Below are positions 29,318 through 50,177 of a DNA stretch of 64,000 nt, piece after piece. How positions within the stretch are numbered: the first letter of the stretch is position 1; each line of letters starts with the position of its first letter. Source of the stretch: Gemmatimonadota bacterium (GTDB lineage: Bacteria; Gemmatimonadota; Gemmatimonadetes; Gemmatimonadales; Gemmatimonadaceae); contig JARIFA010000003.1 of NCBI GenBank assembly GCA_031127075.1, positions 1 through 64,000 of the forward strand. Reading direction: 5' to 3'. The position numbers and the translations under genes are program-made. The notes beneath the pieces were generated by a model that was not told the origin of the DNA, made no database searches, and saw nothing but the letters and a program-made list of their open reading frames with translations.

Positions 29318-29346
29318 TTGACAGCATTGCTGGACAGCCGCATCGT
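29318..29346 (+). promoter_or_regulatory. Candidate promoter TTGACA-N17-CATCGT upstream of the glycan-binding lipoprotein
   Basis: Consensus -35 at 29318-29323, 17-bp spacer, weak -10; abuts the operator palindrome. Confidence 0.5.
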
Positions 29347-29366
29347 TTGTTCGGTTGTCGAACAAA
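29346..29366. promoter_or_regulatory. Palindromic operator TTTGTTC-N7-GAACAAA (copy 1)
   Basis: TTTGTTCGGTTGTCGAACAAA; same motif and spacing as 41561-41581. Confidence 0.8.
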
Positions 29367-29426
29367 GCAGGGTGTTGGCCGCCCTGCCGGCAGGTGGTGT
29401 CCGGATCCCCTCTCCTGGAGTCCCTC

Positions 29427-32400
29427 ATGCGTTCCCCCCGCCTCTCCGCCGCCCTCCTTGCGGCCGTCCTCTCCCTCTCCGCCTGCGAACGCGAGGGTGG
29501 GACCGGTCCCGCCCCGATGCCGAACGACCCGACGGTCTTCACCGATGGGTTCGGCGAGGGGGTGTCGTGGCAGGCCTTCCAGGGCTCGCTGCTGACCGCG
29601 ATGTCGATCGACAACGCGGTCAAGTACCGCGGATCGGCGTCGCTCAAGATCACGATCCCTGACGCCGGGGACCCGAACGCCGGGTATTCTGGTGGCGCGT
29701 TCGTCTCGGACGTCGCGCGCGACTTCTCCACCTACGACGTCGTGTCGTTCTGGGCCAAGGCGAGCGTCGCCGCGACCCTCAACGTCGCCGGTCTCGGCAA
29801 TGACAACACCGGGACCTCGAAGTACACCGCCGAGCGCACGGACCTCGCGTTGACGACGGCGTGGCAGAAGTACACGATTGCCATCCCGTTGGCGTCGAAG
29901 CTCACGGTGGAGAAGGGCCTCTTCTTCTTCGCCGAGGGCCCCGAGGCGGGGAAGGGGTACACGCTCTGGCTCGATGACATCCAGTTCGAGACGCTGGGCA
30001 CGCTGACCAATCCGCGGCCGGCGATTACCGGCGGGACGTATGAGCAGGAGGTCGGAGACTCTCGGACGATCGTCGGGACGACGCTCACCGTCGCGGTGGG
30101 CGGGGTCGACCAGACCGTCGCCGCGTCGTCGGGCTACTTCACCTTCAGCTCCTCCAACACCGCCGTCGCGACGGTCACGAACGGCGTGATCAGCGTCGCC
30201 GCGCCTGGCGCGGCGACCATCACCGGCAGCTTGGGCGCCGTCTCGGCCGCCGGCAGCATCGCCCTCACCGCAGCCGCCCCGCCGGCGGTCGCCGCGCCGA
30301 CCCCGTCGCGGCTCGCGGCGAACGTGATCTCGCTCTTCAGCGGCGGCTACACGAACCGGACGATCGACACCTGGTCGGCGACCTGGGACGTTGCTGACGT
30401 CGCGGATGTGACGATCGCCGGCAACGCCACGAAGAAGTACAGCAACCTGTCGTACGCGGGGATCGAGTTCACGACGGCGCCGATCGACGCGACGCAGATG
30501 ACCGGCCTCCACCTCGATCTCTGGGTGACGCAGGCCGCCGGCTTCAAGATCAAGCTCGTCGACTTCGGCGCCAATGGCGTCTTCGGCGGCGGCGATGACA
30601 AGGAGCACGAGGTCACGCTGAACAGCAGCTCGTCCCCGGCGATCACCACCGGGGCGTGGAACTCCGTCGACATCCCCTTCTCGGCGTTCACCGGCCTGAC
30701 CACCCGCGGCAAGCTCGCGCAGATGATCATCGCCGGGAGCCCGACGGCGTATCTCGACAACGTCTACTTCTACAAGATCCCGCCGCCGCCGGGCCCGACC
30801 GCTGCGGCCGCGACGCCGACGAATCCGGCCGCTGGCGTGATCTCCCTCTTCAGCAACGCGTACACGGACCGGGTGGGAACCACGTGGTCGACGGTGTGGG
30901 ACCAGGCCGACGTCGCCGACGTGCAGGTGGCCGGCGACGACGTGAAGAAGTACACGAATCTGGTCTTCGCGGGCATCGAGCCCGCATCGCCGATCGATGC
31001 CTCCGGGATGTCGACCCTGAACTTCGACCTTTGGACGCCGGACTCCATCTCCGGGACGTCGTCGTTCAAGGTCAAGCTCGTCGACTTCGGGGCCAACGGG
31101 AGCTTCGGCGGCGGGGATGACACCGAGCACGAGCTCACCTTCACCCCGACCTCCACGCCGGCGTTGACCAACGGCAGCTGGGTGCGGTTCGCGATTCCGC
31201 TGACGAACTTCACCGGGCTCACCTCGCGGGCGAAGCTCGCGCAGATGATCCTCGTGAGCACGATGCCGACGGTGTATCTCGACAACATCTTCTTCTCGGC
31301 CGATGCGCCGGCGGTGGCCGCACCGACGCCGACGAAGGCGGCGGGCGACGTCATCTCGCTCTTCAGCAACGCGTACACGAACCGCACCGTGGATACCTGG
31401 TCGGCGGCGTGGGACCAGGCGGACGTGTCCGACGTGAGCATCGCTGGCAACAGCACGAAGAAGTACTCGGGCCTCGTCTTCGCGGGGATCGAGTTCACCA
31501 CCGCGACGATCGACGCGTCGGAGATGACGCACTTCTCCTTCGACCTCTGGACCCCGGAGGCGACGGCGGCGCCGGCCGAGTTCAAGGTCAAGCTCGTCGA
31601 CTTCGGCGCGAACAATGCGTTCGGCGGCGGGGATGACAAGGAGCAGGAGCTGGTCTTCTCGGCGACGTCCACCCCGGCGCTCGAGACGGGGAGCTGGGTC
31701 ACCTTCGACATCCCGCTGAGCGCCTTCACCGGGCTGACCACCCGACGGAACCTGGCGCAGCTGATCATCGTCAGCGCGCCGAGCGCGCGGACGCTCTTCA
31801 TCGACAACATGTACTTCTATAAGGCGCCGGCGCCGTCGGGACCTCAGGTCTCCGCGGCGGCTCCGACCGGGGCAGCGGCGTCGGTCATCTCGCTCTTCTC
31901 GAACGCGTACACGAACCGGCCGAACACCACCTGGTCGACGGTGTGGGACCAGGCCGACGTCACCGACGTCGCGGTCGGGTCCGACAGCGTCAAGAAGTAC
32001 TCGAACCTCGTCTTCGCGGGGATCGAACCGGCCGCGCCGGTCAACGCCGGGGCGATGACGCACTTCAACTTCGATCTCTGGACGCCGGACGCCGTGACCG
32101 GCACCTCGACCTTCAAGCTCAAGCTCGTCGACTGGGGGGCCGGCGGCTCCTTCGGCGGCGGCGATGACACCGAGCACGAGCTGACCTTCACCACCAGCTC
32201 CTCTCCGGCGCTCGCGACGGGGACCTGGGTCCGCTTCAAGGTCCCGCTTTCGAGCTTCACGGGGATGACGGGCCAGACGAGCATCGCCCAGTTCATCATC
32301 TCGGGTTCGCTCGGGACGGTCTACCTCGACAACATCTATTTCTCGGCGGATGCGCCGGCGATCGCCGCACCGACCCCGACGTATGCCGCGGGTGACGTGA

Positions 32401-32873
32401 TCTCGCTCTTCAGCAACGCCTACACCAATCAGAACGTGAACACCTGGTCGGCGGAGTGGGATTCGGCCGACCTCGCGGACGTGCAGGTGGCCGGGAACGA
32501 CGTCAAGAAGTACTCGAACCTGGTGTTCGCCGGCATCGAGTTCACCTCGTCGACCGTCAACGCGACCGCGATGACGCACTTCTCGTTCGATCTCTGGACG
32601 CCCGAGGCGACGACGGCCGCCTCGGAGGTCAAGGTGAAGCTCGTCGACTTCGGCACGAACAACGCCTTTGGCGGCGGTGATGACAAGGAGCACGAGCTCG
32701 TCTTCTCCACCACCTCCACCCCGGCGCTCGCCGGCGGGGCGTGGGTGACCTTCAACATCCCGCTGGCGCAGTTCACCGGCCTCACGACCCGCGGCAACCT
32801 GGCCCAGCTGATCCTCGTGAGCGCCCCGAGCGCTCGCACCGTCTTCATCGACAACGTCCTGTTCCACAAGTAG
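29427..32873 (+). CDS. Secreted lipoprotein with N-terminal jelly-roll-like domain, Ig-like (Big_2) domain and five tandem glycan-binding-like modules
   Basis: Lipobox MRSPRLSAALLAAVLSLSAC; SSSNTAVATVTNGVISVAAPGAATITG; five VISLFS...DNxxF modules. Confidence 0.85.
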   Translation: MRSPRLSAALLAAVLSLSACEREGGTGPAPMPNDPTVFTDGFGEGVSWQAFQGSLLTAMSIDNAVKYRGSASLKITIPDAGDPNAGYSGGAFVSDVARDFSTYDVVSFWAKASVAATLNVAGLGNDNTGTSKYTAERTDLALTTAWQKYTIAIPLASKLTVEKGLFFFAEGPEAGKGYTLWLDDIQFETLGTLTNPRPAITGGTYEQEVGDSRTIVGTTLTVAVGGVDQTVAASSGYFTFSSSNTAVATVTNGVISVAAPGAATITGSLGAVSAAGSIALTAAAPPAVAAPTPSRLAANVISLFSGGYTNRTIDTWSATWDVADVADVTIAGNATKKYSNLSYAGIEFTTAPIDATQMTGLHLDLWVTQAAGFKIKLVDFGANGVFGGGDDKEHEVTLNSSSSPAITTGAWNSVDIPFSAFTGLTTRGKLAQMIIAGSPTAYLDNVYFYKIPPPPGPTAAAATPTNPAAGVISLFSNAYTDRVGTTWSTVWDQADVADVQVAGDDVKKYTNLVFAGIEPASPIDASGMSTLNFDLWTPDSISGTSSFKVKLVDFGANGSFGGGDDTEHELTFTPTSTPALTNGSWVRFAIPLTNFTGLTSRAKLAQMILVSTMPTVYLDNIFFSADAPAVAAPTPTKAAGDVISLFSNAYTNRTVDTWSAAWDQADVSDVSIAGNSTKKYSGLVFAGIEFTTATIDASEMTHFSFDLWTPEATAAPAEFKVKLVDFGANNAFGGGDDKEQELVFSATSTPALETGSWVTFDIPLSAFTGLTTRRNLAQLIIVSAPSARTLFIDNMYFYKAPAPSGPQVSAAAPTGAAASVISLFSNAYTNRPNTTWSTVWDQADVTDVAVGSDSVKKYSNLVFAGIEPAAPVNAGAMTHFNFDLWTPDAVTGTSTFKLKLVDWGAGGSFGGGDDTEHELTFTTSSSPALATGTWVRFKVPLSSFTGMTGQTSIAQFIISGSLGTVYLDNIYFSADAPAIAAPTPTYAAGDVISLFSNAYTNQNVNTWSAEWDSADLADVQVAGNDVKKYSNLVFAGIEFTSSTVNATAMTHFSFDLWTPEATTAASEVKVKLVDFGTNNAFGGGDDKEHELVFSTTSTPALAGGAWVTFNIPLAQFTGLTTRGNLAQLILVSAPSARTVFIDNVLFHK
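30324..32870 (+). repeat. Five in-frame tandem modules, about 171-178 aa each, in A-B-A-B-A order
   Basis: Module starts at 30324, 30837, 31350, 31884, 32397 (513, 513, 534, 513, 474 bp). A-type: DTWSAxWD/IEFTT/GGGDDKExE; B-type: TTWSTVWD/IEPA/GGGDDTEHELTF. Confidence 0.9.
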
Positions 32874-32912
32874 GCTTCAGGGCATGGCGCCCGCCGTGCC
32901 GCTGGTGAGACG

Positions 32913-34169
32913 ATGACCCGGTCTCCGGGTCCCCGGGTGGGCGCGTCGGACTTCCGTCCGGCGCGCCCACCGTCGTTGGCGGACGCCGTCCTGCGGCTTA
33001 TCTGGGACGAGGAACGCATCTCTCGGGCCGACATCGCCCGGCGGACCGGCCTCTCCCGGTCCACCGTCTCTGAAATCGTGGAGACCCTTCTCGCCACCGG
33101 CCTCGTCTCGGAGGCCGGGGTCGGGGACTCGCGTGGCGGGCGCCGCCCGATCGTCCTCGAGTTCCAGGACGCGGCCGGGGTGGTCCTCGGTGTCGACATG
33201 GGGGCGGCGCATGTCGCGGTGATCCTGACCGACCTTCGGGGACGGATCCTCGCCGCCGAGCGGACGGCGCATCCGGTGCAGGGGGATCCGGACGGGGCTC
33301 GGGCGTTCATCCGTCGCCTCGTCGAGACCTGCCTCGCCGCCGTGGGGCCGCTCTCGGCGCGTCGGCTCATCGGCGTCGGGATCGGCGTCCCCAGCCCGGT
33401 GGACGTCCGGCACCCCGATCGGCTCTCGCCGGTCGCGATGCCCGCGTGGGAGGGGCGGCACGGCCTCGACACCCTCCTCGCGAACCTCGGCGTCCCGATC
33501 CTCGTCGACAACGACGCCAACCTGGGCGCGCTCGCCGAACGCTGGTGGGGCGCGGCACAGGGGCTCGATCACTTCGCCTACATCAAGATCGCCACCGGAA
33601 TCGGGGCCGGGCACGTCATCGACGGCCGGATCCACCGCGGGGCGAGCGGCGTGGGTGGCGAGATCGGACACGTCGCGATCGACCCGCGCGGCGAAACCTG
33701 TAACTGCGGGAATCGCGGCTGCCTCACCACCTTCGTCGGGGCGCCCGCGCTGGCGGCACGGATCCAGGCGCTCCGGCCCGTCTATCCGCAGAGCCTCCTT
33801 GCTGACGGTCCGCCGACCGTCGCGCGGCTCGAGGAGGCGGCACGCGCCGACGATCCGCTCGCCCTGCAGGTGATCCACGAGGTCGCCGAGCACCTGGGCG
33901 TCGCGATCGCCGGGATGCTCAACCTCCTCAACCCGGCGGCCGTCATCCTCGGAGGGCGGATCGCCGGCCTCGGGGAGAAACTCATCGCGCCGCTGCGCGC
34001 CACGGCGCTCCGGCGCACCTTCGTGCCGGCCGCAGCCGCGACGGAGATCCGCGCCAGCACGCTCGGCTCCCACGGAATCGCCCTCGGGGCCGCGACCCTC
34101 GTCCTCGACGCCGCGTTGCGCGATCCGCGACTCTTCCGGCCCGTCGCGCGAGCACGAACCGGCGGCTGA
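32913..34169 (+). CDS. ROK family transcriptional regulator
   Basis: HTH ISRADIARRTGLSRSTVSEIVETLLATGLVSE; ROK sugar-kinase-like fold with zinc/ROK motifs VGGEIGHVAIDPRGETCNCGNRGCLTTFVG. Confidence 0.93.
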   Translation: MTRSPGPRVGASDFRPARPPSLADAVLRLIWDEERISRADIARRTGLSRSTVSEIVETLLATGLVSEAGVGDSRGGRRPIVLEFQDAAGVVLGVDMGAAHVAVILTDLRGRILAAERTAHPVQGDPDGARAFIRRLVETCLAAVGPLSARRLIGVGIGVPSPVDVRHPDRLSPVAMPAWEGRHGLDTLLANLGVPILVDNDANLGALAERWWGAAQGLDHFAYIKIATGIGAGHVIDGRIHRGASGVGGEIGHVAIDPRGETCNCGNRGCLTTFVGAPALAARIQALRPVYPQSLLADGPPTVARLEEAARADDPLALQVIHEVAEHLGVAIAGMLNLLNPAAVILGGRIAGLGEKLIAPLRATALRRTFVPAAAATEIRASTLGSHGIALGAATLVLDAALRDPRLFRPVARARTGG

Positions 34170-34172
34170 GCC

Positions 34173-35711
34173 CTAGGCCGCGGCCCGCCGCCGCTCCAGC
34201 TCGGCGCGGACCTCGTAGGCTTTCGCTTCGGTGAGCGGGTATCCCGCCATCACCCAGATGGCGACGCCCGACGCGAGGAAGGGAATCCAGACGTCAGCGA
34301 CGCGCAGGAGGTAGAGCGTCCGCGCCGACTGGGCGCCACCGAGCGCCACGTCGAACCCCGTCGCGTTGAGCACCACCCCGCCGAGCGCCAGCGCGACCGC
34401 CATCCCGACCTTCACGACCCACCAGAAGATCGAGCCGAACATCCCCTCCCGGCGCTGCCGCGTCGCGAGCTCGTCCGTGTCGACGACGTCGGCCATCATC
34501 GCCCCCATCAGGGTGAAGAGGCCGCCGAGTCCGAAGGCGAGGAAGGGCGCCGGGACGAGGAGGAGCCAGGGGCGCGCCGGGTCGTAGCAGACCCATTTGA
34601 GGGCGTAGCCGACCATCGAGAGGGCGGTGGAGACGAAGAAGGCGCGCTGCTTGCCGATCCGCGTCGCGAGCCAGGTGATCAGGGCGATGACGCCGAAGGT
34701 CGAGATGGCGCCGAGGGTGCCGGCGTAGCCGGTGTAGCGCGCGCCGAGCTCCTGGTTCCCGCCGAAGACGTAGTAAATCACCACGTACGACTGGAACGAC
34801 GAGATCATGATGAAGCCGTTGAACACGAGAAAGGTGGCGATGCAGAGCCGGAGATAGGGCCCCGTGCGCAGCGTCGCGGCGAAGCCGCGGAAGAACTCCC
34901 GGGTGTTCCGCTGGACCGCGGCCCACGCCCCCGCCGTCGCCTGTGCCGCTGGCGCCGCGGCGGTCGCCGCCGCCGTCACCATCCGTTCACGCAGGACGAT
35001 GGCGGGGATCACGCCCACCACGCAGGCCACGATCCCCACGCCGATGGCGAGTCCGCGCGCGCCGTCGGCGGGCGTGGGGAACCACGCCGTGTTCGTCATG
35101 ATCCAGAGGAACCAGGGGGAGACGAGGTAGGCGAGCTGCGCGATGAAGTTCTGCACGCCCATCAGCCGCGTGCGCTCGTGGTAGTCCGGCGTCAATTCGT
35201 AGCCGAGGGCGACCCACGGCGTCGCGAAGATCGTGTACCCGACGTAGAAGATCGTCGAGCCGATCGTGAAGTACCAGAAATACCAGAGCTCGCTCTTCCC
35301 GACGGGGAGGAGCCAGAGGGCGATGAAGGAGAGGCCGGAGAAGAGCGCGCCGATGAAGATGTATGGCCGCCGCCGGCCCCACCGTGAGCGCGTCCCGTCG
35401 GAGATGAATCCCATGATGGGATCCGTCAGCGCATCGGTGACGCGGGGGAGGGCGCTGGCGAGCCCGACCAAGGCGGGGTTCATCCCGAAGCCGAGGTTCA
35501 GGATGATGAGCATCCCGCCGATCGCGGCGGCGAGGGTGTTGTTGACGAAGCCGCCGAGGCCGTACGCCACCTTGTGCGCGAACGGGATCCGGTCGGCCTC
35601 CGGCGTCACGTGCCGCGGTGTCTCGGGCCCGGTCGACGGGCCGAGGCGACGGTGCCACGCGGAGAGAGCGACCCGGAAGAGCCCGATGCGTCGCGGCGAG
35701 GACTGGCTCAT
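34173..35711 (-). CDS. MFS transporter, GPH (glycoside-pentoside-hexuronide):cation symporter type
   Basis: About 12 TM segments; RVTDALTDPIMGFISDGTRSRWGRRRPYIFIGA motif. Start MSQSSPRR at 35711 overlaps the GH16 stop. Confidence 0.9.
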   Translation of the reverse strand: MSQSSPRRIGLFRVALSAWHRRLGPSTGPETPRHVTPEADRIPFAHKVAYGLGGFVNNTLAAAIGGMLIILNLGFGMNPALVGLASALPRVTDALTDPIMGFISDGTRSRWGRRRPYIFIGALFSGLSFIALWLLPVGKSELWYFWYFTIGSTIFYVGYTIFATPWVALGYELTPDYHERTRLMGVQNFIAQLAYLVSPWFLWIMTNTAWFPTPADGARGLAIGVGIVACVVGVIPAIVLRERMVTAAATAAAPAAQATAGAWAAVQRNTREFFRGFAATLRTGPYLRLCIATFLVFNGFIMISSFQSYVVIYYVFGGNQELGARYTGYAGTLGAISTFGVIALITWLATRIGKQRAFFVSTALSMVGYALKWVCYDPARPWLLLVPAPFLAFGLGGLFTLMGAMMADVVDTDELATRQRREGMFGSIFWWVVKVGMAVALALGGVVLNATGFDVALGGAQSARTLYLLRVADVWIPFLASGVAIWVMAGYPLTEAKAYEVRAELERRRAAA

Positions 35712-36499
35712 CGGATCTCCTGATAGACGCGGACCCAATCCACGAGCAGGGTCTGCGGGAACACGGTCGACCCATCCGGCGGACCGATGAAGTTCCCGCC
35801 CACGGCGAGATTCAGAATGATGAAGAATTCGTGGTCGAAGACCCAATCCCCGGGCTGGTCGCCCTTCGCCACGACGTGGTAGAGGGTATCGTCGAGGTAG
35901 AACCGGATGTCCCGCGGGCTCCAGTCGACGCGGTAGACGTGGAAGTCGGTGTCGAGCCGTCCGTCGAGGAGCGTGTACTTCCGTGTGACCGCCGCGCCCC
36001 CCGAGTAGCCCGGGCCGTGCAAGGACCCGTGCACGATGCTCGGCTCCTGCCCGCGATACTCCATGATGTCGATCTCGCCCGACCGCGGCCAGCCCACGGT
36101 CGGGAAGTTCGCGCCGAGCATCCAGAAGGCGGGCCAGAGCCCCTTGCCCGTCGGCATCCGCATCCGGGCCTCGAAGCGCCCGTAGCGGAACTGCTTCCGC
36201 CCGAGGGTCTTCAGACGCGCGGAGGTGTAGCCGCGATTGAGATACGATTCCTGACGCGCGGTGATGGCCAGGTGACCTTCCCCGTCGAGGGCGGAGTTCG
36301 CCCGCCGATCGGTGTCGAATTCGAGTTGCGCGTTCCCCCAGTCGGTGCCGATGTCCGCGATCCAGACCTGCGGGTCGGGTGCCGCGCCGGCCGCTCCCTC
36401 GAACTCATCCGACCAGACGAGTGAATACTCAGGCTCGGTCGCGCCGGAGCAGGCGGCGAGGAGGAGGCAGAGGCTCAGGAGGGCAGGGCGACGGCGCAC
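35708..36499 (-). CDS. GH16 family glycoside hydrolase (beta-glucanase/laminarinase-like)
   Basis: Lipobox LCLLLAACSG; GH16 catalytic motif GEIDIMEYRG; VYRVDWSPRDIRFYLDD; FFIILNLAVGGN. Confidence 0.93.
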   Translation of the reverse strand: MRRRPALLSLCLLLAACSGATEPEYSLVWSDEFEGAAGAAPDPQVWIADIGTDWGNAQLEFDTDRRANSALDGEGHLAITARQESYLNRGYTSARLKTLGRKQFRYGRFEARMRMPTGKGLWPAFWMLGANFPTVGWPRSGEIDIMEYRGQEPSIVHGSLHGPGYSGGAAVTRKYTLLDGRLDTDFHVYRVDWSPRDIRFYLDDTLYHVVAKGDQPGDWVFDHEFFIILNLAVGGNFIGPPDGSTVFPQTLLVDWVRVYQEIR

Positions 36500-36541
36500 A
36501 GGAGGGCGGGTGAGGGGAAGGGGCAGTGCGCGACGCCGCGC

Positions 36542-38362
36542 TCAGCGCGGCGTGAGGCCGTGGCCACGCGGGAACCGGACGGGCGCCCGCCCGTCAGGCG
36601 CGGGCGCCGTGGCCGGCCAGTCGAGCGGGAGCACACCGGTGAACGGGTGGGCGCCGAACAGGACGTCGGCGACCCCGGCGCCCTCCGAACCCGGCAACCA
36701 GCCCGCGATGAACGCCTGTGACGCGGCCAGTTCGCGGTCCACCAGCAGCGGACGGCCGGAGAGGAGGATCGTGACCACCGGGATCCCCTTGGCCCGGATC
36801 GCCTCGATCGTCGCGAGGTCCTCCGGATGCCGCGTCGCAAGCTCCAACGTGGTGCCGTACGGCTCGAGGTTCACGGTGAAGAGCCCACCGGGAAGAGGCG
36901 GAGTGATCCGCCCCCCCGGACGAATGTCCCCCATCCCCTCGGCGTACGGCATCTCGCCGATCACTACCACCGCCACATCGTGCTGCGTCGGGTCGGCCGC
37001 GGACCCATCCATGCTGAGCGTCGCCGCCGGCGCCACGGCACGGATGCCCTGCCAGATCGACGTCCCGCCGACGATCGCATCGTTCCCGTGCGTCCCCTGC
37101 CACGCGGCGCTGAAGCCGCCGCACTGATGGCTGATGTCGTCGGCGTGCTTGCCCGCGACGAGGATGCGCTGTCCAGCGCGCAGCGGCAGCACGTCGCCCG
37201 CGTGTGCGAGCAGCACCTGCGATCGACGCACCGCCTCGCGCGCCACGGCACGATGCGCGGCGCTCCCGAACGTCTCGCTCTCCGCCCACGGGCGCTCCGC
37301 CGGCCGGACGCGGTCGAGGAGGCCGGCCCGCACCTTCACGCGGAGGATCCGCCGCACCGCATCGTCGATGCGGGCCATCGGGATCGCGCCCGACGCGACG
37401 CCGGCGGCGAGGCCGGTGAGCCGCCGACGCCAATCGGCGGCGCACATCAGCATGTCGACGCCCGCGTTCACCGCGAGCACGATCGCCTGGTCGAGATCGG
37501 CCGCCACCTGATCGACGCCGTCCCAGTCGGAGACGACGAGGCCGCTGAAGCCGAGCCGCTCCTTGAGCACCCCGGTCAGCAGCGCACCGTGCGCGTGGCA
37601 CTTCGTCCCGTTGACGCTGTTGAAGGACACCATCACCGTCTGCACCCCGGCGTGCAGTGCGGCACGGTACGGTGGGAGATGCGTGTGTTCGAGGGCCTCG
37701 GGGGAGAGCGCCGCATCCCCCTGGTCGATCCCCTCCGTCGTCGCGCCATCGCCGATCCAGTGCTTGGCGCAGGCGAGGACGCCATCGTCATCGAGGGTGC
37801 CCTGCATCCCACGCACGAACGCCTCGGCGTACGCGGCGACGAGCGCGGGATCGTCGGAGAAACTCTCGTAGGTGCGGCCCCACTGTACGTTTTGCACGAC
37901 GGCGAGCGTCGGGGCGAAGTTCCAGTCGAGTCCCGTGGCGAGAACCTCGCGCGCGCAGATGCGCGCAAGCCGCTCGATGAGCTCCGGATCCCGGGCCGCC
38001 CCGAGGCCGATGTGATGCGGGAAGATCGTCGCGCCGCGCACGTTGGCGTGGCCGTGCACCGCATCGACCGCGTACAGGAGCGGGATCGCGGCGCGGTCGT
38101 CCGTCGGGTCGGTCGAGGCGGCCCAGAGGGCGTCGTTGAGCGCGACCCAGTCGGCCGGGGTGTTGGCGCCGGGCACCGAGCCCGACCCGCTCAAGACGGC
38201 GCCGAGGTGATACGCGCGGACGTCTTCGGGGGTCGTCGATGCGCGCTCGCTCATCATCATCTGCCCGAGCTTCTCCTCGAGCCGCAGGCGGGCGAGGATC
38301 GCCTCGACGCGCTCCTCGACCGCCGCGGGGGCGGTCGGGCGGGGGAGGGTGGGCGCGCTCAC
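36542..38362 (-). CDS. GH3 family beta-glucosidase
   Basis: KLGQMMMSERAST, CAKHWIGDGATTEGIDQGDAAL, LGFSGLVVSDWDGVDQ (nucleophile Asp). GTG start 38362 overlaps the upstream stop. Confidence 0.93.
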   Translation of the reverse strand: MSAPTLPRPTAPAAVEERVEAILARLRLEEKLGQMMMSERASTTPEDVRAYHLGAVLSGSGSVPGANTPADWVALNDALWAASTDPTDDRAAIPLLYAVDAVHGHANVRGATIFPHHIGLGAARDPELIERLARICAREVLATGLDWNFAPTLAVVQNVQWGRTYESFSDDPALVAAYAEAFVRGMQGTLDDDGVLACAKHWIGDGATTEGIDQGDAALSPEALEHTHLPPYRAALHAGVQTVMVSFNSVNGTKCHAHGALLTGVLKERLGFSGLVVSDWDGVDQVAADLDQAIVLAVNAGVDMLMCAADWRRRLTGLAAGVASGAIPMARIDDAVRRILRVKVRAGLLDRVRPAERPWAESETFGSAAHRAVAREAVRRSQVLLAHAGDVLPLRAGQRILVAGKHADDISHQCGGFSAAWQGTHGNDAIVGGTSIWQGIRAVAPAATLSMDGSAADPTQHDVAVVVIGEMPYAEGMGDIRPGGRITPPLPGGLFTVNLEPYGTTLELATRHPEDLATIEAIRAKGIPVVTILLSGRPLLVDRELAASQAFIAGWLPGSEGAGVADVLFGAHPFTGVLPLDWPATAPAPDGRAPVRFPRGHGLTPR

Positions 38363-41300
38363 CAGGCCACCGTCAGGTAGCTGCGGAGCTCCCACTCGCG
38401 CCCGAGCGGGAAGCCGGGGGCACCTGCGTCGCACACGGTGTCGCCGGCGGCATTCGTCGTGGTCGTCGGGCAGTAGCGCGGGGAGTAGCGATCGAGGGTC
38501 CGCCAGGTGCCGCGGATCCCGAACTTCGTCTCGGGGAGGTCGAACCACTGCGGCTTGCCGAAGACGTAGGCGACGTCGGCCATCAGCTGCGTCGGGAAGG
38601 TGAGGTTGAAGTCGCGATGGTAGTCGTAGGGCCCGAAGTCGTTGAACTTGGCGGCACCGATGATCTTGAGCGGGCCCGAGACGAGCCGCAGGTCGCCACC
38701 GGCGCGCGTGACCAGCCGCTGGCTGTCGCCATTCGGTTCGGCCTTCCCGCCGTACGCGTTCACGATGAAGCGGAGGTCGCGGCCCACGCGGGCGATGGTG
38801 CGCGCCCGGATCTCCCAGAGGTCGCGCCCCGGCGTCGAGGCGGGGAAGGCGAATGGGGTGCGGCCGTCGGCGAGGATGCCGATCGCCGCATCCATCCCCG
38901 TCGGCATGTGCTTGTACGTGTAGGCGACGCTCGCCGCGAAGCGTGCGTCCTCGCGGACGTCATTGTCCCACTGATACATCCAGGTCGCGGGCGTCGGATC
39001 CCACGTCAGCAAGAGCTCGCCCGCCGCCATCTCCCGGTTCGCCCGCACGACAAACGGGTCACGCAGTACGTTCCGCAGGCGCGCCGGGGCGGGGGCGCCA
39101 CGCGGGATCGGCCCCACGAGCGGCTGCTGCACGAGAATGTTCGGGGCGATCTGCAGGTTGCCGATGGAATAGGTCAGCCCGGTCATCGCGTTCCACTGAT
39201 TGCTCATCCCCGTGTCGCGGAGCCACCACCCGGTGAAGGTCTGCACCGCGGTGGGCCCGCCATCGGCCACGAGCCCCATCAGGGCGCCCTGCGCATACCA
39301 GTTCACGCGACCGCGAGAGAACGACAGCTTCGCCTTCGCGCCGAACGCATCGCTCGGCCGGATCTCGTCGCCGAGCACCTGGTAGCTCCCGGGTGCGCCC
39401 TCGACGCGCTGGAAGGTCTCGCCGACGCGCGTGGACCCCGCCCAGATGCCACCGACGTCGACGCCCACGCCGAGCAGGGTGGTGGCGAGGTGCAGGGAGA
39501 GGCGCCGCGTGGGCGGCAGCGGGATCGCGAGAGAGCTCGTCGTCGCGCCGGCCGGGATGCGCGCGAGGTCCTCGTGGTAGAGGCCCGTGACATCGATGCC
39601 GGCGATGCGCCGCCGGTACTTGAAGAGCGCGGCGGGGTTGGCGCCCCACCAGAGCTCTGGGCCGATCGCGACCTTCAGGCCCTCGAGGGCGCGCTTCCCG
39701 GCGATCTCCATGCCGAGCGGTGCCACCGCATTGTAGGTGTCGATGTTCCGGCCGTAGTTCGCTTCGCGATAGACGCCGAAGAAGTCGCCCTCGTAGCCCC
39801 AGTGGTAGTGGCCCGAGCGATTGAACGCCTCGAGACGGAAGTTGCGGGCGTCCCAGGTGACGTGCGCGCGGTACACCTTGAGCCGCTCCAGGCCATCGGT
39901 CGCGACGCCGCCGCCGGAGGTCAGCGCGAGCGTCCGTGAGCGGCCGCGGTTCTCGTAGAAGATCTCGTCAATCGGGTTTTCAGGGACGTGGCCGAGCACG
40001 TTCACCGCGAGGGTGGCCTGCAGGCGCTCCGAGGGCTTGGCCTCGAGCTCGACGAAGTACGACTCCATCCGGTCAAAGCCCCGGAAGGCGGGGCGGTCGG
40101 TGGGGCTCGGTGTGTCGGCGCTGGGTGTCCGGATCGCGGAGCCGCCCGTCGCGAAGTTCGTGAGCTCGAGCCGCATCCCCTTCAGGCGGAGGGGGGCCGA
40201 TTCCGCGCCGGCGCCGGCGCGCTCGGCACGCGCCTGCGCGGTGAGCGCGCCGGGGTCGATGGCCGCGAACTGTGCCCGCAGCGAGGCGCGCGTCGTCCCC
40301 GGCGCGTAGGGGTCGAGGGCGTGGATGCGCTGCAGCGCATAGTAGGCGGCGCGCGGGTACAGGTCGAAGAGCCCGCGGGTATCCGGTGGCCCCTTGGCCA
40401 CGATGCCCCACCACTCTTCATTCATGTTGTTCTCGCCGCGCACGAAATCGTGCGGGTAGGCGTCCGCGGGCCACGAGGCATTGACGTCGTGGATGTCGAG
40501 TCGCGATTCCTGGCCGAACTTCCACCAGCCGTCGCTCCACTGGAAGGTGAAGCCGCCGATCGCATTCCCGGGACGTCCCTGACCGGCGGCGTGCCCGTAG
40601 ATCTCCTCCCACTGCGAGATGAGATAGCGCGCCTGCGCCTCCTGATCTTCGCGTCCCTCCCGCTCGTTCCACGCGTCCGCGCCGAACTCGGTGAAGAGGA
40701 CCGGGATCCCGAGCTTCGCCTCGACCACGTCGAAGAAGTCGCGGAAGGAGGCGCCGCGATAGACGTTCGATCCGAGGATGTCGATCCCCTTCGCCTCCTG
40801 CGCGATGAGATCGATGTACTGCAGGTCGCCGTTGGCGTAGGCCACCGGATGCGCCGGGTCCGCCGCCTTCACGGCGCGCGCGACTTCGCCGACGAGCGAG
40901 TAGAGATAGCGCGCCCGGGCCGCGTCCCGCTCACCGACCGGGAGCGCCTCGGTCTCGGCTGAGCGCCAGCTCAGGCCGTAGTTGTTCTCGTTGCCGAGGA
41001 GCCAGAGGAGGAGGCCCGGCGTCCCGCGGAATTCCTGGACCAGCGCCATCACCTCGGCGGTGATCGCCGCCCGGACGCGTGGGTTGGAGTAGTCGGTCTG
41101 CGGCTGGTAAACGCCGTCGATCGTGACGCCGTAGCGTCCCAGCGCGTGGTTCAGGACCGTGTGGATCCCGTACGTCTCATAGATGTACTTGATCCAGCGC
41201 GGCGGGATGCCGGCGTAGACGCGGATCGCGTTGCCCCCCATCCGCCGGACGAGGGACATCTCCCGCTCGAGCGCCTCGATGATGAAGGCATCCGGCTGGG

Positions 41301-41517
41301 TCCAGAGCGCGTACGCGTAGTTCTCCCCAATCGGGATGTAGTCCCAGTTGACGCCGTTGATCATCAGGGGGCGTCCCCCGACGGTGAGCCGGAGTCCGGT
41401 CGAGTCACGGACGACGCGCACTGGCGCGTCCGGGGACTGCGCCGACGACGGCCGGGGGATCGCCCCCACCGCCAGACTGCCGACCAACAGGAACCGCCGC
41501 GCCAGATGCGACCACAT
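38359..41517 (-). CDS. Clan GH-A glycosidase fused to putative C-terminal outer-membrane beta-barrel
   Basis: Signal MWSHLARRFLLVGSLAVGAIPRPSSA; GVNWDYIPIGENY, GGNAIRVYAGIPP, LWLLGNENN (acid/base) and VLFTEFGADAWNE (nucleophile); from about 40200 downward, alternating amphipathic aromatic strands ending WELRSYLTVAW-stop. Confidence 0.8.
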   Translation of the reverse strand: MWSHLARRFLLVGSLAVGAIPRPSSAQSPDAPVRVVRDSTGLRLTVGGRPLMINGVNWDYIPIGENYAYALWTQPDAFIIEALEREMSLVRRMGGNAIRVYAGIPPRWIKYIYETYGIHTVLNHALGRYGVTIDGVYQPQTDYSNPRVRAAITAEVMALVQEFRGTPGLLLWLLGNENNYGLSWRSAETEALPVGERDAARARYLYSLVGEVARAVKAADPAHPVAYANGDLQYIDLIAQEAKGIDILGSNVYRGASFRDFFDVVEAKLGIPVLFTEFGADAWNEREGREDQEAQARYLISQWEEIYGHAAGQGRPGNAIGGFTFQWSDGWWKFGQESRLDIHDVNASWPADAYPHDFVRGENNMNEEWWGIVAKGPPDTRGLFDLYPRAAYYALQRIHALDPYAPGTTRASLRAQFAAIDPGALTAQARAERAGAGAESAPLRLKGMRLELTNFATGGSAIRTPSADTPSPTDRPAFRGFDRMESYFVELEAKPSERLQATLAVNVLGHVPENPIDEIFYENRGRSRTLALTSGGGVATDGLERLKVYRAHVTWDARNFRLEAFNRSGHYHWGYEGDFFGVYREANYGRNIDTYNAVAPLGMEIAGKRALEGLKVAIGPELWWGANPAALFKYRRRIAGIDVTGLYHEDLARIPAGATTSSLAIPLPPTRRLSLHLATTLLGVGVDVGGIWAGSTRVGETFQRVEGAPGSYQVLGDEIRPSDAFGAKAKLSFSRGRVNWYAQGALMGLVADGGPTAVQTFTGWWLRDTGMSNQWNAMTGLTYSIGNLQIAPNILVQQPLVGPIPRGAPAPARLRNVLRDPFVVRANREMAAGELLLTWDPTPATWMYQWDNDVREDARFAASVAYTYKHMPTGMDAAIGILADGRTPFAFPASTPGRDLWEIRARTIARVGRDLRFIVNAYGGKAEPNGDSQRLVTRAGGDLRLVSGPLKIIGAAKFNDFGPYDYHRDFNLTFPTQLMADVAYVFGKPQWFDLPETKFGIRGTWRTLDRYSPRYCPTTTTNAAGDTVCDAGAPGFPLGREWELRSYLTVAW

Positions 41518-41560
41518 GGGGGGACCTCCGCGCGCACGCGGGGGAGGGGAGATGGCAGGC

Positions 41561-41581
41561 TTTGTTCGGTAAGGGAACAAA
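41561..41581. promoter_or_regulatory. Palindromic operator TTTGTTC-N7-GAACAAA (copy 2)
   Basis: TTTGTTCGGTAAGGGAACAAA, 43 bp upstream of the GH-OMP start. Minus-strand TTGACG -35 at 41608-41603. Confidence 0.8.
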
Positions 41582-41655
41582 GTGCAACCGGGCCTCGGAG
41601 CCCGTCAAGATGACGCGGGGACCATCCGCCCGTTCCGCGTCGCCGTGCCATCGGG

Positions 41656-45835: not shown

Positions 45836-48526
45836 TCACGGCGCCAACAGGAACCGCAGCGGCGTCTCCACCCGCTGCCGCCAAGCGCGCTCCGTGTGGT
45901 CCGCGCCCTCGAATAGCCGCGTCTGGAGTCGCGGAGCGGTGTACCCCTTCGCGCGGAAGACCGCCTCGGCCTTCGTCTGCAATTCGCCGTACGTGGCGTC
46001 CAATGACAGCGTCCCCCGGTCGAGATAGACGCGATGCGTCGCGGGGTCGGGCAGCTCTTGCCCGAGGTAGTCGATCAGCGCCCCTTCGCCGGCGGGCCAA
46101 TGCGTCGACAGCGCCGCCGCCGCGCCGAACACCTCGGGATACTCGGTCAGTCCGTAGAGGGAGATCACGCCCCCCATGCTCGATCCCATCAGCATCGTGT
46201 CGTCGCGGCCTGGGCGAGTCCGGAAGGTGCGGTCGATGTACGGCTTCAGTTCCATCACAAGGAACCGAAGATAGGCGTCGCCCAGCGGTCGGCCGGTGAT
46301 CGGTGGTAGCTCCGAGCCCATACTGAAAGCGCTGTCGGTCGCCGGAATCGCCTTGGTGGCCATGTACTCCTGCTGGCGACGCGACGAACTCCAGACGGCG
46401 ACCACGATCGCCGGCCGCACCTGACGCTCCGCGATGAGGCGGCCCAACGATTCATCCACGGCCCAGTCGACCCCGCTGGAGGCGGCGGCGGGGTCGAAGA
46501 CGTTCTGACCATCCTGAAGGTAGATGACCGGGTAGCGCGCGGCGGTGTCGCGCCCGTAGCCGGGTGGAAGCCAGACCTCCACATGACGTGACGAGACGTT
46601 CCGCGATGGGAATGCGCGAATCACCCGCCGGTCCCCGCTGACGCCGAGCGCTGGGCCCGGCACCTCACGGGCCGTGATGGGGAAGACGCACCCGGCCCGG
46701 CGCGGCAGCGCCACTACCACGGCATCGCCCTGAGGCTCCGGAGTGGCGCAGATCCCGAGGAGGTCCGCACCGGCGAGGCCGAGCGGGATCCGTAGCGTCG
46801 CGACGGCGGTGTCGTTGTTGATCGCCACCAGGGTGTTGCCGCGACGGTAGACCCACGCCTGTTCGGTCAGGAGGAGGGTCTCCGTTGCCTCGCCACGGAG
46901 GTCGGCCCGGTCGCCCCGGAGCTTCGTCAGGGCCTGCAGATGCGAAAAGAGCTGGTCCTCGTCCGGCGTGCGCCCGGTCGGTTCGAAGGCGTTCCGCGGA
47001 TCATCCGCCCAGCCGCCCGGGAAGTCACGTCGATTGTCCGGTTCGCTGCCGCCGGGCATCCCGATCTCATCGCCGTAGTAGATCAGCGGGGTGCCTCGAG
47101 TCGTCATCAGGACGGTCCACGCGAGCTTCAGCCCGTCGAGGGTGGCCCGGGGATCGCCGGTGAAGCGTGGGACGTTGTGGAGGCCGAGGAAGGTGACCAG
47201 TGCCGCCGGGTCTTTATAGAGGCGGTCGCGGGCGAGCATTTGCGCCACGCCACGGATCGAGCCGCCTTCCTGGAAGGCCGACCGAAGCGAATAGAACAGC
47301 GGGAAATCGAAGAGGGCGTCCACCCCGGTGTCGACCCCGTCGAACTGGGGCACGCCCCCCTGGAAGAAGGCGGTCATCGTCGGGTCGCCGTCGACAACTT
47401 CGCCGACCACCTTGAGCGTCGGGAATTCTCGCTTGATCGCCTTCGTCCACTCGCGCCAGAAGGTGCGCGGCACGTAGGGCCACGTGTCCTGTCGGATGCC
47501 GTCGAGGCCGGTCACCCCGACCCACCAGAGGGTATTCTGAATCAGGTACTGCCGGACCTCTGGATCGTCTTGGTTGAGGTCAGGCAGGACGTCGATGAGC
47601 CAGCCGTCAAGCGTCCCCTCTCGCATCCGCGCCGAGGCGTTCGGGTCGGTGAGGGTCCAGGTCTGCCACACGTTGGCGAGATGGCGCTCGGCGGTGCCGT
47701 GGAACCAGGTCGGCGTCGGCGGGTCGGCGACCCACGGGTGGTACGGCCCCGTGTGATTCGCGACCATGTCCATCACGACTTTGAGCCCCTTCGCGTGGGC
47801 GGAATCGACGAGCGCGCGGTAGCCGCCGAGCGAGCCGAGATGTTCGTCGACCTCGTAGAAATCGACGGCGCCGTAACCGTGGTAGTCGGTGATCGGCTGT
47901 CCGTCGTACGTCTCCTTGCGATTGAGCCCGTCGTGGCTGTCGTAGACGGGGTTCATCCAGAGCGTGGTGACCCCGAGGTCCTTGAGGTAGCCGAGGTGTT
48001 GCTGGACGCCGGCGAGATCGCCGCCGTGGTAGTAACGGCCCTTCGAACGATCGAGGAGGCCGGCGCCACCGGGGTCGTCATTCGACGGGTCGCCGTTCGC
48101 GAAGCGGTCGGGCATCAGCAGGTACATCACGTCGTTCCGGTCGAAGCCGCGGAAGCGGCCGGTCCGGACGAGCGGGGGCAGGACCTCGAACGTCGCGCTG
48201 TCGCGGCCCGCGCTCGTCACGACGGCGAGCGCGTACCGACCGGGCTTCACCGTCGGGCCACCCGGGAGGGTGACGTCCGTGAAGAGGGTGGTCCCCGTCT
48301 CGCTGATCTTCACGTTGGTGCACCGCAGGGCGCCGCACTCGAGCCGGGCTCCGCCGAAATGTTTCCCGCGCATCATCACCCGCACGGGATTGACCGTGGA
48401 GCCCTGCCACCAACTCGGCGGGTCGGTCTGCAGGACCTCGGGCGCCTGGGCGAGGAGCGGCGCCCCGACACTCAGGAGTGCCGAGAGGGCAAGCAGGCGA
48501 CGGAGCAGAGCCTGCGGAACGGTCAT
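45836..48526 (-). CDS. Secreted GH13 alpha-amylase family enzyme fused to C-terminal alpha/beta-hydrolase (esterase D/Fes-like) domain
   Basis: Cyclomaltodextrinase-type N-domain; GH13 MDMVANHTGPYHPW, DGIRQDTWPYV, VVGEVVDGDP; C-terminal VIYLQDGQNVFDP...TMLMGSSMGGVISLYG (GxSxGG). Confidence 0.88.
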   Translation of the reverse strand: MTVPQALLRRLLALSALLSVGAPLLAQAPEVLQTDPPSWWQGSTVNPVRVMMRGKHFGGARLECGALRCTNVKISETGTTLFTDVTLPGGPTVKPGRYALAVVTSAGRDSATFEVLPPLVRTGRFRGFDRNDVMYLLMPDRFANGDPSNDDPGGAGLLDRSKGRYYHGGDLAGVQQHLGYLKDLGVTTLWMNPVYDSHDGLNRKETYDGQPITDYHGYGAVDFYEVDEHLGSLGGYRALVDSAHAKGLKVVMDMVANHTGPYHPWVADPPTPTWFHGTAERHLANVWQTWTLTDPNASARMREGTLDGWLIDVLPDLNQDDPEVRQYLIQNTLWWVGVTGLDGIRQDTWPYVPRTFWREWTKAIKREFPTLKVVGEVVDGDPTMTAFFQGGVPQFDGVDTGVDALFDFPLFYSLRSAFQEGGSIRGVAQMLARDRLYKDPAALVTFLGLHNVPRFTGDPRATLDGLKLAWTVLMTTRGTPLIYYGDEIGMPGGSEPDNRRDFPGGWADDPRNAFEPTGRTPDEDQLFSHLQALTKLRGDRADLRGEATETLLLTEQAWVYRRGNTLVAINNDTAVATLRIPLGLAGADLLGICATPEPQGDAVVVALPRRAGCVFPITAREVPGPALGVSGDRRVIRAFPSRNVSSRHVEVWLPPGYGRDTAARYPVIYLQDGQNVFDPAAASSGVDWAVDESLGRLIAERQVRPAIVVAVWSSSRRQQEYMATKAIPATDSAFSMGSELPPITGRPLGDAYLRFLVMELKPYIDRTFRTRPGRDDTMLMGSSMGGVISLYGLTEYPEVFGAAAALSTHWPAGEGALIDYLGQELPDPATHRVYLDRGTLSLDATYGELQTKAEAVFRAKGYTAPRLQTRLFEGADHTERAWRQRVETPLRFLLAP

Positions 48527-48595
48527 CTGGCGGCGTCGGTGCGGTCGACGAGCACGGCGGTGGGTGCGAAAGCGAGCACGAGAGATAGTCTAGTC

Positions 48596-48605
48596 GAAAC
48601 GATTC
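48596..48605. promoter_or_regulatory. Weak LacI-type operator candidate GAAACGATTC
   Basis: Imperfect palindrome (4 of 5 pairs, central CG) 70 bp upstream of the GH13-esterase start; no LacI gene in the window. Confidence 0.2.
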
Positions 48606-48707
48606 CCGTACGCCGGCCGTTCCCGAGGGCGGCGCTCCGGAGCGTCATCCGCGCGAGTAATCCCAGGGCGGACGCGGCCGAGATGGATGTCACAAAGCAA
48701 CGCCCCC

Positions 48708-50177
48708 CTAGCGCTGATACAGATGAACGAGCTCGCGGAGACGGTCGGCGATGGCTGGTGTCACCTGATCCCACGAGAACCGGAACTGCCAGTTCCCCTC
48801 GGGGCGGCCGGGGCGGTTCATCCGGGCCTCGCTGCCGAGGCCGAGGAGGTCCTGCATCGGGAAGAGCGCCGTGTCGGCCACCGACGCGAGGGCCTCGCGG
48901 ATGAAGCGCCAGTGCACGTCGGTGCCGTCCCAGCCGAGGTAGCGCATCGCGAAGGCCTTCTCGCGCTGGACCTCCTCTGGGGTGCGGGTGGAGTCGCCGC
49001 CCCCGGTGGAGGCCCACCAGCCGACCATCGTGTCGTTGTCATGCGTACCGGTGTAGACGACGCGCTCGCGCGGATAGGTATGCGGCTGGAAATCATTCGC
49101 GCTGCCGTCGGTGCTGAAGGCGAACTGGAGGATGCTCATCCCGGGATACGCGTAGCGTTCGCGGAGGGCCTCCACCGCCGGCGTGATCACCCCGAGGTTC
49201 TCGGCGATGATCGGCACCGGGCCGAGGGCATCGGTGATCGCGTCGAAGAGCGCGTCGCCCGGCGCCTTCACCCAGCGGCCGTTCACTGCCGTCGTATCGT
49301 CGCCCGGGACCTCCCAGAACGACTCGAACCCCCGGAAATGGTCGATGCGGACGACGTCGAAGTTTGCGAACATCGCGCGCATCCGGCGGATCCACCAGCG
49401 GAACCCGTCGGCTTCCATCCGGTCCCACGCGTAGATGGGGTTTCCCCAGCGCTGGCCCGTGGCGCTGAAGTAGTCGGGGGGGACCCCCGCTTGCACGGCC
49501 GGGCGACCATCGGATCGGAGCCGGAACTGCTCGGGATTCGCCCAGACGTCCGCGGAGTCATGCGCGACGTAGATGGGGAGGTCGCCGATGAGCTGGATGC
49601 CGCGGCGGTTGGCCTCCCCCTTGAGGGCGCGGAACTGGAGGAAGAACAGGTGCTGCACCCGCCGGTGGTGCTCGATGTCATCGGCGAGGCGCGCCCGCGC
49701 AGCCGCGAGGGCCTCCGGCTGTCGCTGCGCCAGCGCGGGCTCCCAGTCGGTCCAGGCGACACCGCCGTGGGCCGTCTTGAGCGCCATGAAGAGCGCGAAA
49801 TCGTCAAGCCACCACGCCTCCGCCTCGTAGAAGGCGCGAGCGGCGGCGTCGTCGGGCATCGCGCGCGTGTACTCGCGCAGCATCGCCTGCTTCGTCGGGA
49901 TCACGCGCCCGAAGTCGACGGTGTGCGCCGGGAAGGTCGCGTCGCTCTCGCCAACGTGGACCAACAGCGGATTCCCCGCGAAGGCGCTGAAGCACTGGTA
50001 CGGGGAATCACCATAGCCCGTGGGCCCGATCGGGAGCATCTGCCAGTAGCGCATCCCCGTGTACTGCAGGAGATCGAGGAAGCGGTAGCTGTCGAGTCCG
50101 AGGTCGCCGATCCCGCAGGGCCCGGGGAGCGAGGTGGGATGGAGGAGGACGCCGCCGGCGCGGGGGAGTCGCATCAC
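48708..50177 (-). CDS. malQ: 4-alpha-glucanotransferase
   Basis: RAGGVLLHPTSLPGPCGIGDLG; YWQMLPIGPTGYGDSPYQCFSAFAGNP; VVRIDHFRGFESFWEVP; IIAENLGVITP. Confidence 0.95.
   Translation of the reverse strand: MMRLPRAGGVLLHPTSLPGPCGIGDLGLDSYRFLDLLQYTGMRYWQMLPIGPTGYGDSPYQCFSAFAGNPLLVHVGESDATFPAHTVDFGRVIPTKQAMLREYTRAMPDDAAARAFYEAEAWWLDDFALFMALKTAHGGVAWTDWEPALAQRQPEALAAARARLADDIEHHRRVQHLFFLQFRALKGEANRRGIQLIGDLPIYVAHDSADVWANPEQFRLRSDGRPAVQAGVPPDYFSATGQRWGNPIYAWDRMEADGFRWWIRRMRAMFANFDVVRIDHFRGFESFWEVPGDDTTAVNGRWVKAPGDALFDAITDALGPVPIIAENLGVITPAVEALRERYAYPGMSILQFAFSTDGSANDFQPHTYPRERVVYTGTHDNDTMVGWWASTGGGDSTRTPEEVQREKAFAMRYLGWDGTDVHWRFIREALASVADTALFPMQDLLGLGSEARMNRPGRPEGNWQFRFSWDQVTPAIADRLRELVHLYQR

Follow-up and report, generated by a model that had tools for sequence, protein, structure and literature searches.

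Gene organization of the locus

The window analyzed here, which means the whole stretch of 64,000 nucleotides from a Gemmatimonadota bacterium, harbors a six-gene locus that is constructed of two converging operons, namely a lipoprotein-ROK operon on the plus strand and a GH-barrel/GH3/GH16/MFS operon on the minus strand. The genes are listed below in the order of their coordinates.

29427-32873, plus strand: large repeat-domain lipoprotein, a probable surface glycan binder (Pfam SGBP_B_XBD, 8e-10; ChiC, 4e-9; start codon assigned by reading)
32913-34169, plus strand: predicted ROK-family repressor with an N-terminal winged HTH (Pfam ROK, 1.3e-55; HTH_24, 4e-9)
34173-35711, minus strand: GPH/MFS sugar:cation symporter (Pfam MFS_2, 8e-55; TIGR00792, 2e-46, under its cut-off; ATG at 35711 chosen as start)
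35708-36499, minus strand: GH16 protein of the laminarinase/lichenase type (Pfam GH16, 4e-25)
36542-38548, minus strand: GH3 beta-glucosidase, start uncertain (Pfam GH3, 2e-78; best NCBIfam match exo-beta-1,3/1,6-glucosidase, 1e-87, under its cut-off)
38359-41517, minus strand: GH158-like catalytic domain joined in one protein to a beta-barrel of the outer-membrane type (AlphaFold2 model, Foldseek matches)

The AlphaFold2 model of the last protein, termed the GH-barrel protein (mean pLDDT 75.5), is composed of a TIM barrel at about residues 33-435 and a beta-barrel at about residues 443-1052. GH158 laminarinases were the best Foldseek matches of this model (E 7.9e-15, at 15% identity and a model pLDDT of 75.5), outer-membrane barrels, for example BtuB, MOMP and AlgE, were also listed, and a sequence profile matched 6pal with an E value of 0.0015. 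Relatives of the GH-barrel protein are encoded in at least 510 stretches of the genome collection, many of which belong to Bacteroidota. The combination of the GH158-like barrel with GH16 and GH3 enzymes suggests beta-1,3-glucan as the probable substrate. No homologue of SusC or SusD turned up in the six-gene set.

Predicted operators and promoters

The two operons are each preceded by a predicted promoter with an embedded inverted repeat, and the features are as follows.

29318-29323, plus strand: -35 box TTGACA of the lipoprotein-ROK promoter, starting 28 bp before operator 1
29341-29346, plus strand: putative -10-like hexamer CATCGT, 17 bp after the -35 box, its last base being the first base of operator 1
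29346-29366, plus strand: predicted operator 1, TTTGTTCGGTTGTCGAACAAA, found at the same place 5' of the lipoprotein gene in other class L loci
41561-41581, minus strand: predicted operator 2, TTTGTTCCCTTACCGAACAAA as read on the minus strand, found at the same place 5' of the GH-barrel gene in other class G loci
41579-41584, minus strand: putative -10-like hexamer CACTTT, 18 bp after the -35 box, its last three bases being the first three of operator 2
41603-41608, minus strand: -35 box TTGACG of the GH-barrel operon, starting 27 bp before operator 2

A pattern scan of the window for TTTGTTC-N7-GAACAAA returned exact matches at 29346-29366 and 41561-41581, precisely where a first-pass annotation of this DNA had placed them; its description of the pair as marking the outward ends of the locus also holds, with the two operons converging and one operator lying at the 5' end of each. 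Operator 1 follows the extended form TTTGTTCG-N5-CGAACAAA, from which operator 2 departs by one arm mismatch. When three mismatches were allowed, three matches were obtained in the window against 0.07 expected by chance, and the third of them (40426, 3 mismatches) was dropped as an operator because it falls inside the GH-barrel gene, at a position where the encoded protein is conserved. The annotation had noticed only two copies, and in the genome of origin (2.2 Mb, 98 contigs, 81.5% complete) no further place with at most two mismatches was found, three places with 3 mismatches being present outside the window. Outside the locus, the interval 45836-52279 on the minus strand holds genes for alpha-glucan, encoding an alpha-amylase/esterase fusion, a GH77 protein and a CBM48 alpha-amylase-type protein, and carries no operator copy.

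The repeats had been described as lying 27-28 bp downstream of TTGACA or TTGACG and over the -10/start region. The distances were determined as 28 bp for site 1 and 27 bp for site 2, and each operator overlaps the end of the putative -10-like hexamer, by one base at site 1 and by three bases at site 2. Since these hexamers end inside the operators, RNA polymerase would have to melt DNA covered by the regulator, as read from the sequence.

The ROK protein

The product of 32913-34169 is the sole regulator among the six bracketed genes. Its ROK sugar-kinase-like domain occupies residues 92-399 (Pfam PF00480, 1.3e-55), while an N-terminal winged HTH is indicated at residues 26-74 by matches to HTH_24 and to MarR-type domains, in contrast with the ROK kinases, which lack such a domain. 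The SRSTVS stretch of the HTH is invariant in 17 orthologues, as are C263, C265, G266, G269 and C270, which fit the pattern CxCGxxGC that we take to be the cysteine-rich zinc motif of ROK family repressors. The predicted operator is likewise of the palindromic kind with T-rich and A-rich arms, as in the ROK family. Covariation between the operator and the recognition helix was considered on the basis of L244, where a symmetric GTAC change accompanies ARST in place of SRST in the helix; the signal was set aside as not clean because L265 and L266 also have ARST, yet their genomes retain GTTC sites.

Conservation in the genus and family

As the annotation had proposed, orthologous ROK loci were footprinted. 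Those of relatives were collected, their genes were located by comparison with the proteins of the window, and both operators were recovered repeatedly. The family footprint, built from 35 sites in 18 genomes (18 on the lipoprotein side and 17 on the GH-barrel side), has the consensus CTTTGTTCG-N5-CGAACAAAG; all 35 sites are within one mismatch of TTTGTTC-N7-GAACAAA (12 exact, 23 with one), in genomes whose ROK and GH-barrel proteins are mostly only 56-68% identical. Only loci already known to contain a site contributed to this set, which therefore measures form and position rather than frequency. The orientation of the site in L105, where no lipoprotein match was found, was taken from its promoter. 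By the GH-barrel protein, the nearest named relative is the Gemmatimonadetes MAG L183 (96% identical).

The promoter spacing is conserved together with the operator. In 31 of the 35 family sites an exact TTGACA box begins 26-29 bp upstream, compared with a random rate of 0.00028 at 26-28 bp, and this would place the operator over the -10 box and the start; a box with one mismatch occurs in 3 more, and the GH-barrel side of G012 is the single site with neither. In the 18 class L sites, the exact box starts 28 bp (16 sites) or 29 bp (2 sites) before the operator. Most relatives read TTGACA where the GH-barrel promoter of the window reads TTGACG, and many read CATACT where its lipoprotein promoter reads CATCGT. 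Among 24 sites from other loci, counted without the Gemmatimonadaceae loci L183-L186 and L226 and without the sites of L194, L214, L219, L228, L239, L244, L245 and L262, the box is exact in 23 and has one mismatch in 1.

Within the genus, a ROK orthologue was found in 6 of 17 genomes, five of which carry exactly two sites, and no site was found in any of the 11 genomes without the orthologue. G004 has a ROK gene without a site, but its contig there measures 5.7 kb and is truncated on either side. At the level of the family, the ROK orthologue is present in 16 of 148 genomes and the GH-barrel gene in 15, with both in 14, and a site accompanies the ROK gene in 15 of the 16. The extended motif at two mismatches was counted in 47 of the 148 genomes versus 11 for the reversed control, so that weak matches include background.

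One rearrangement distinguishes the window from most of its relatives.

34178-36455, strand not assigned: MFS-GH16 block, in the opposite orientation to that of most relatives (blastn comparison with L046 and L047; gene orders)

The block is inverted in the window and in its nearest relative, and in G012, G004 and most others the two genes follow the ROK gene, so that the inversion transferred them between the two operons with an operator. A search for inverted repeats bounding the block found no 10-mer common to its ends. Because both operons have the same operator, the inverted genes should keep the same control.

Distribution across phyla

A profile search with the GH-barrel protein retrieved 80 named loci. 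The ROK orthologue lies inside 22 of them, and a site with at most one mismatch was found in 20 of these 22 versus 9 of the other 58, with a reversed-pattern control of 0/80. Whole-genome searches of the remaining 58 located the ROK gene elsewhere in 8, and at the genome level, with at most two mismatches, a site accompanies the ROK orthologue in 28 of 30 genomes, whereas 3 of the 50 genomes that lack the orthologue have one. In L199 and L224, the ROK orthologue was found with no site on short contigs. As a plain count, the association yields a p value of 6e-16, much of which reflects shared ancestry. On the tree, seven changes are needed for ROK and eight for the site, and the five supported independent pairs (2.7 agreeing on average, 0 disagreeing) give a result that is not significant in a phylogeny-corrected test underpowered by so few pairs.

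Exactly two sites were counted in 8 of 16 genomes scanned as a whole, including the chromosome-level records L197 and L215, in each of which the two sites bracket the locus. The motif is retained across genomes of 37-71% G+C, and by their record titles the loci sharing the switch and the repressor are assigned to Gemmatimonadota, Ignavibacteriota, Zixiibacteriota, Krumholzibacteriota, Eiseniibacteriota and Rhodothermota, which is an unusually wide conservation for this predicted regulon. In Bacteroidota the GH-barrel gene occurs with neither the operator nor ROK, which would imply that regulator and operator came or went together. We are slightly inclined to a broader reading, in which ROK and a near-invariant TTGACA-operator module would constitute a multi-phylum, single-locus regulon for a beta-1,3-glucan system lacking SusC/SusD homologues in its gene set and endowed with an endoglucanase-barrel fusion, the switch being gained or lost as a unit and gene blocks inverting while staying under ROK control.

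A second ROK subfamily

The motif is also associated with a second ROK subfamily (L153-L177), whose members are about 31% identical to the window ROK protein and have GRGMVT as the recognition helix. With at most three mismatches, it was found within 450 bp upstream of the gene in 14 of 20 scored members. Without the rows that built the profile the count is 7 of 12, which is given separately because the subfamily was partly picked for the sites of some members. The motif was found upstream of 0 of 8 members of a third subfamily, and the reversed-pattern control upstream of the scored ROK genes gave 0/28; two of the 30 loci (L166 and L170) were left unscored, as their start was not found by pattern.

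Comparison with known ROK systems

The closest precedents for the operator come from two characterized ROK proteins. RokB of S. coelicolor binds TTTGTTC-N11-GAACAAA in vitro, at the PnovH site (PMC4856308); its 7-bp arms TTTGTTC and GAACAAA are identical to those in the window, and the spacer is 11 bp there and 7 bp here. The same study describes ROK sites as palindromes with T-rich and A-rich arms, shows no perfect inverted repeat for the genomic RokB sites, and links RokB to amino-acid metabolism, unlike the glucan locus of the window (PMC4856308). XylR of P. polymyxa binds a 25-bp site, ACTTAGTTTAAGCAATAGACAAAGT, that was tested by EMSA (PMC9104551). Its length and outer bases equal those of ACTTTGTTC-N7-GAACAAAGT, whereas the inner bases differ, and its targets are xylose genes (PMC9104551), unlike those of the window locus, where no xylose isomerase or xylulokinase occurs among the six bracketed genes.

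The annotation had likened the half-sites to the operator of XylR. XylR of Anaerocellum (Caldicellulosiruptor) bescii, which acts on xylan/xylose genes, recognizes TTTGTT-N5-AACAAA (PMC12285236), so the hexamers TTTGTT and AACAAA are indeed shared, but nine bases separate them here and five there; the likeness thus stands for the half-sites and not for the spacing, and the P. polymyxa XylR and RokB sites are closer. As regards the targets, BglR of T. maritima is a ROK protein that locally represses a laminarinase/beta-glucosidase operon and responds to cellobiose and glucose (PMC3750489); its operon encodes an ABC transporter and belongs to a different phylum, and the comparison concerns targets rather than operator sequence. 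The nearest solved ROK relative by sequence is Lmo0178 of Listeria (5f7p, 5f7q and 5f7r; E 8e-44), which is described as a regulator of alpha-glucan decomposition (PMC9104551). Considering the precedents of RokB, XylR and BglR, the kind of system is already known; in the open-access literature, no description of a ROK operator for Gemmatimonadota was found, nor of this operator, target set and breadth.

Proposed mechanism and alternative explanations

Taken together, the two 21-bp inverted repeats very probably serve as operators for the ROK repressor whose gene lies between them, through which both operons would be controlled. On the sequence evidence we regard the locus as convincingly assigned to a local ROK regulon, probably for the use of beta-1,3-glucan. 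The first-pass annotation had nominated the ROK gene as an autoregulating candidate, and the conserved sites, the tracking of presence and absence, the promoter geometry and the second subfamily all argue for that proposal. In the proposed mechanism, without the inducing sugar a ROK dimer would sit on each operator and block RNA polymerase at both promoters, keeping off the lipoprotein-ROK operon, which would amount to autoregulation, as well as the convergent GH-barrel/GH3/GH16/MFS operon. A breakdown product of beta-1,3-glucan, such as glucose or a short gluco-oligosaccharide imported by the MFS symporter, may then bind the ROK domain and release the protein from the operator. The sequence comparisons establish the sites, their conservation, the promoter geometry and the joint inheritance with the ROK gene; binding, steric repression, inducer and substrate are what we infer here, and a repression loop of 10-14 kb joining both operators was also considered. 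The motif, promoter architecture and target list form a directly testable set and provide an annotation for a glucan-use locus that many uncultured bacteria possess. With regulator, operator and promoter spacing inherited together in several phyla, the system offers an unusually clean natural case of the carriage and loss of a local regulon.

The sites might instead be used by a different regulator encoded elsewhere, for instance of the LacI or TetR type, with the ROK gene as a regulated passenger. Seven site-bearing genomes have their ROK orthologue outside the fetched GH-barrel locus, and the fragmented genomes L213, L229 and G125 have sites where the ROK gene was not found, both of which would fit such a regulator. 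It is nevertheless improbable, given that binding of RokB to these half-sites has been published (PMC4856308), that the second ROK subfamily carries the motif in its own promoters, that site presence tracks the ROK orthologue in the genus, the family and the 80 loci, and that ROK has no competitor among the six bracketed genes. A marginally less probable alternative is that ROK binds these sites as an activator or dual regulator rather than as a simple repressor, a position against which the placement of the operator speaks, over the -10 box and start and behind a near-consensus -35 box, as for a repressor. Some ROK proteins have mixed roles, which counts for this alternative. In the RokB study, both deletion and overexpression of RokB lowered novobiocin production (PMC4856308).

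Even less credence is given to the palindrome being a dispersed repeat, a terminator-like hairpin or a composition artefact. Two distant genomes would point that way, each having 13 copies of which several lie within or close to genes of unrelated function, but the genome of origin has two copies only, the motif is kept at 37-71% G+C with a fixed -35 distance, and the reversed-pattern controls are near zero.

Additional copies in two genomes

The annotation had held that a motif frequent across the genome and unrelated to sugar genes would speak against its reading. Such a pattern is not seen in the genome of origin or in most others, but in 2 of the 16 distant genomes scanned as a whole there are many extra copies at unrelated genes. 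These two, G203 and G205, which from their isolate names we guess to be sponge-type genomes, have about 11 extra copies each. Twelve extra sites in ten stretches (L288-L297) were read, and no TTGACA box was found at any of the twelve. A larger repeat around the extra copies was ruled out, the flanks being unrelated except in orthologous pairs. Several copies lie in or near non-sugar genes, for example those for PurH and an SbcC-like protein, and some are common to both genomes.
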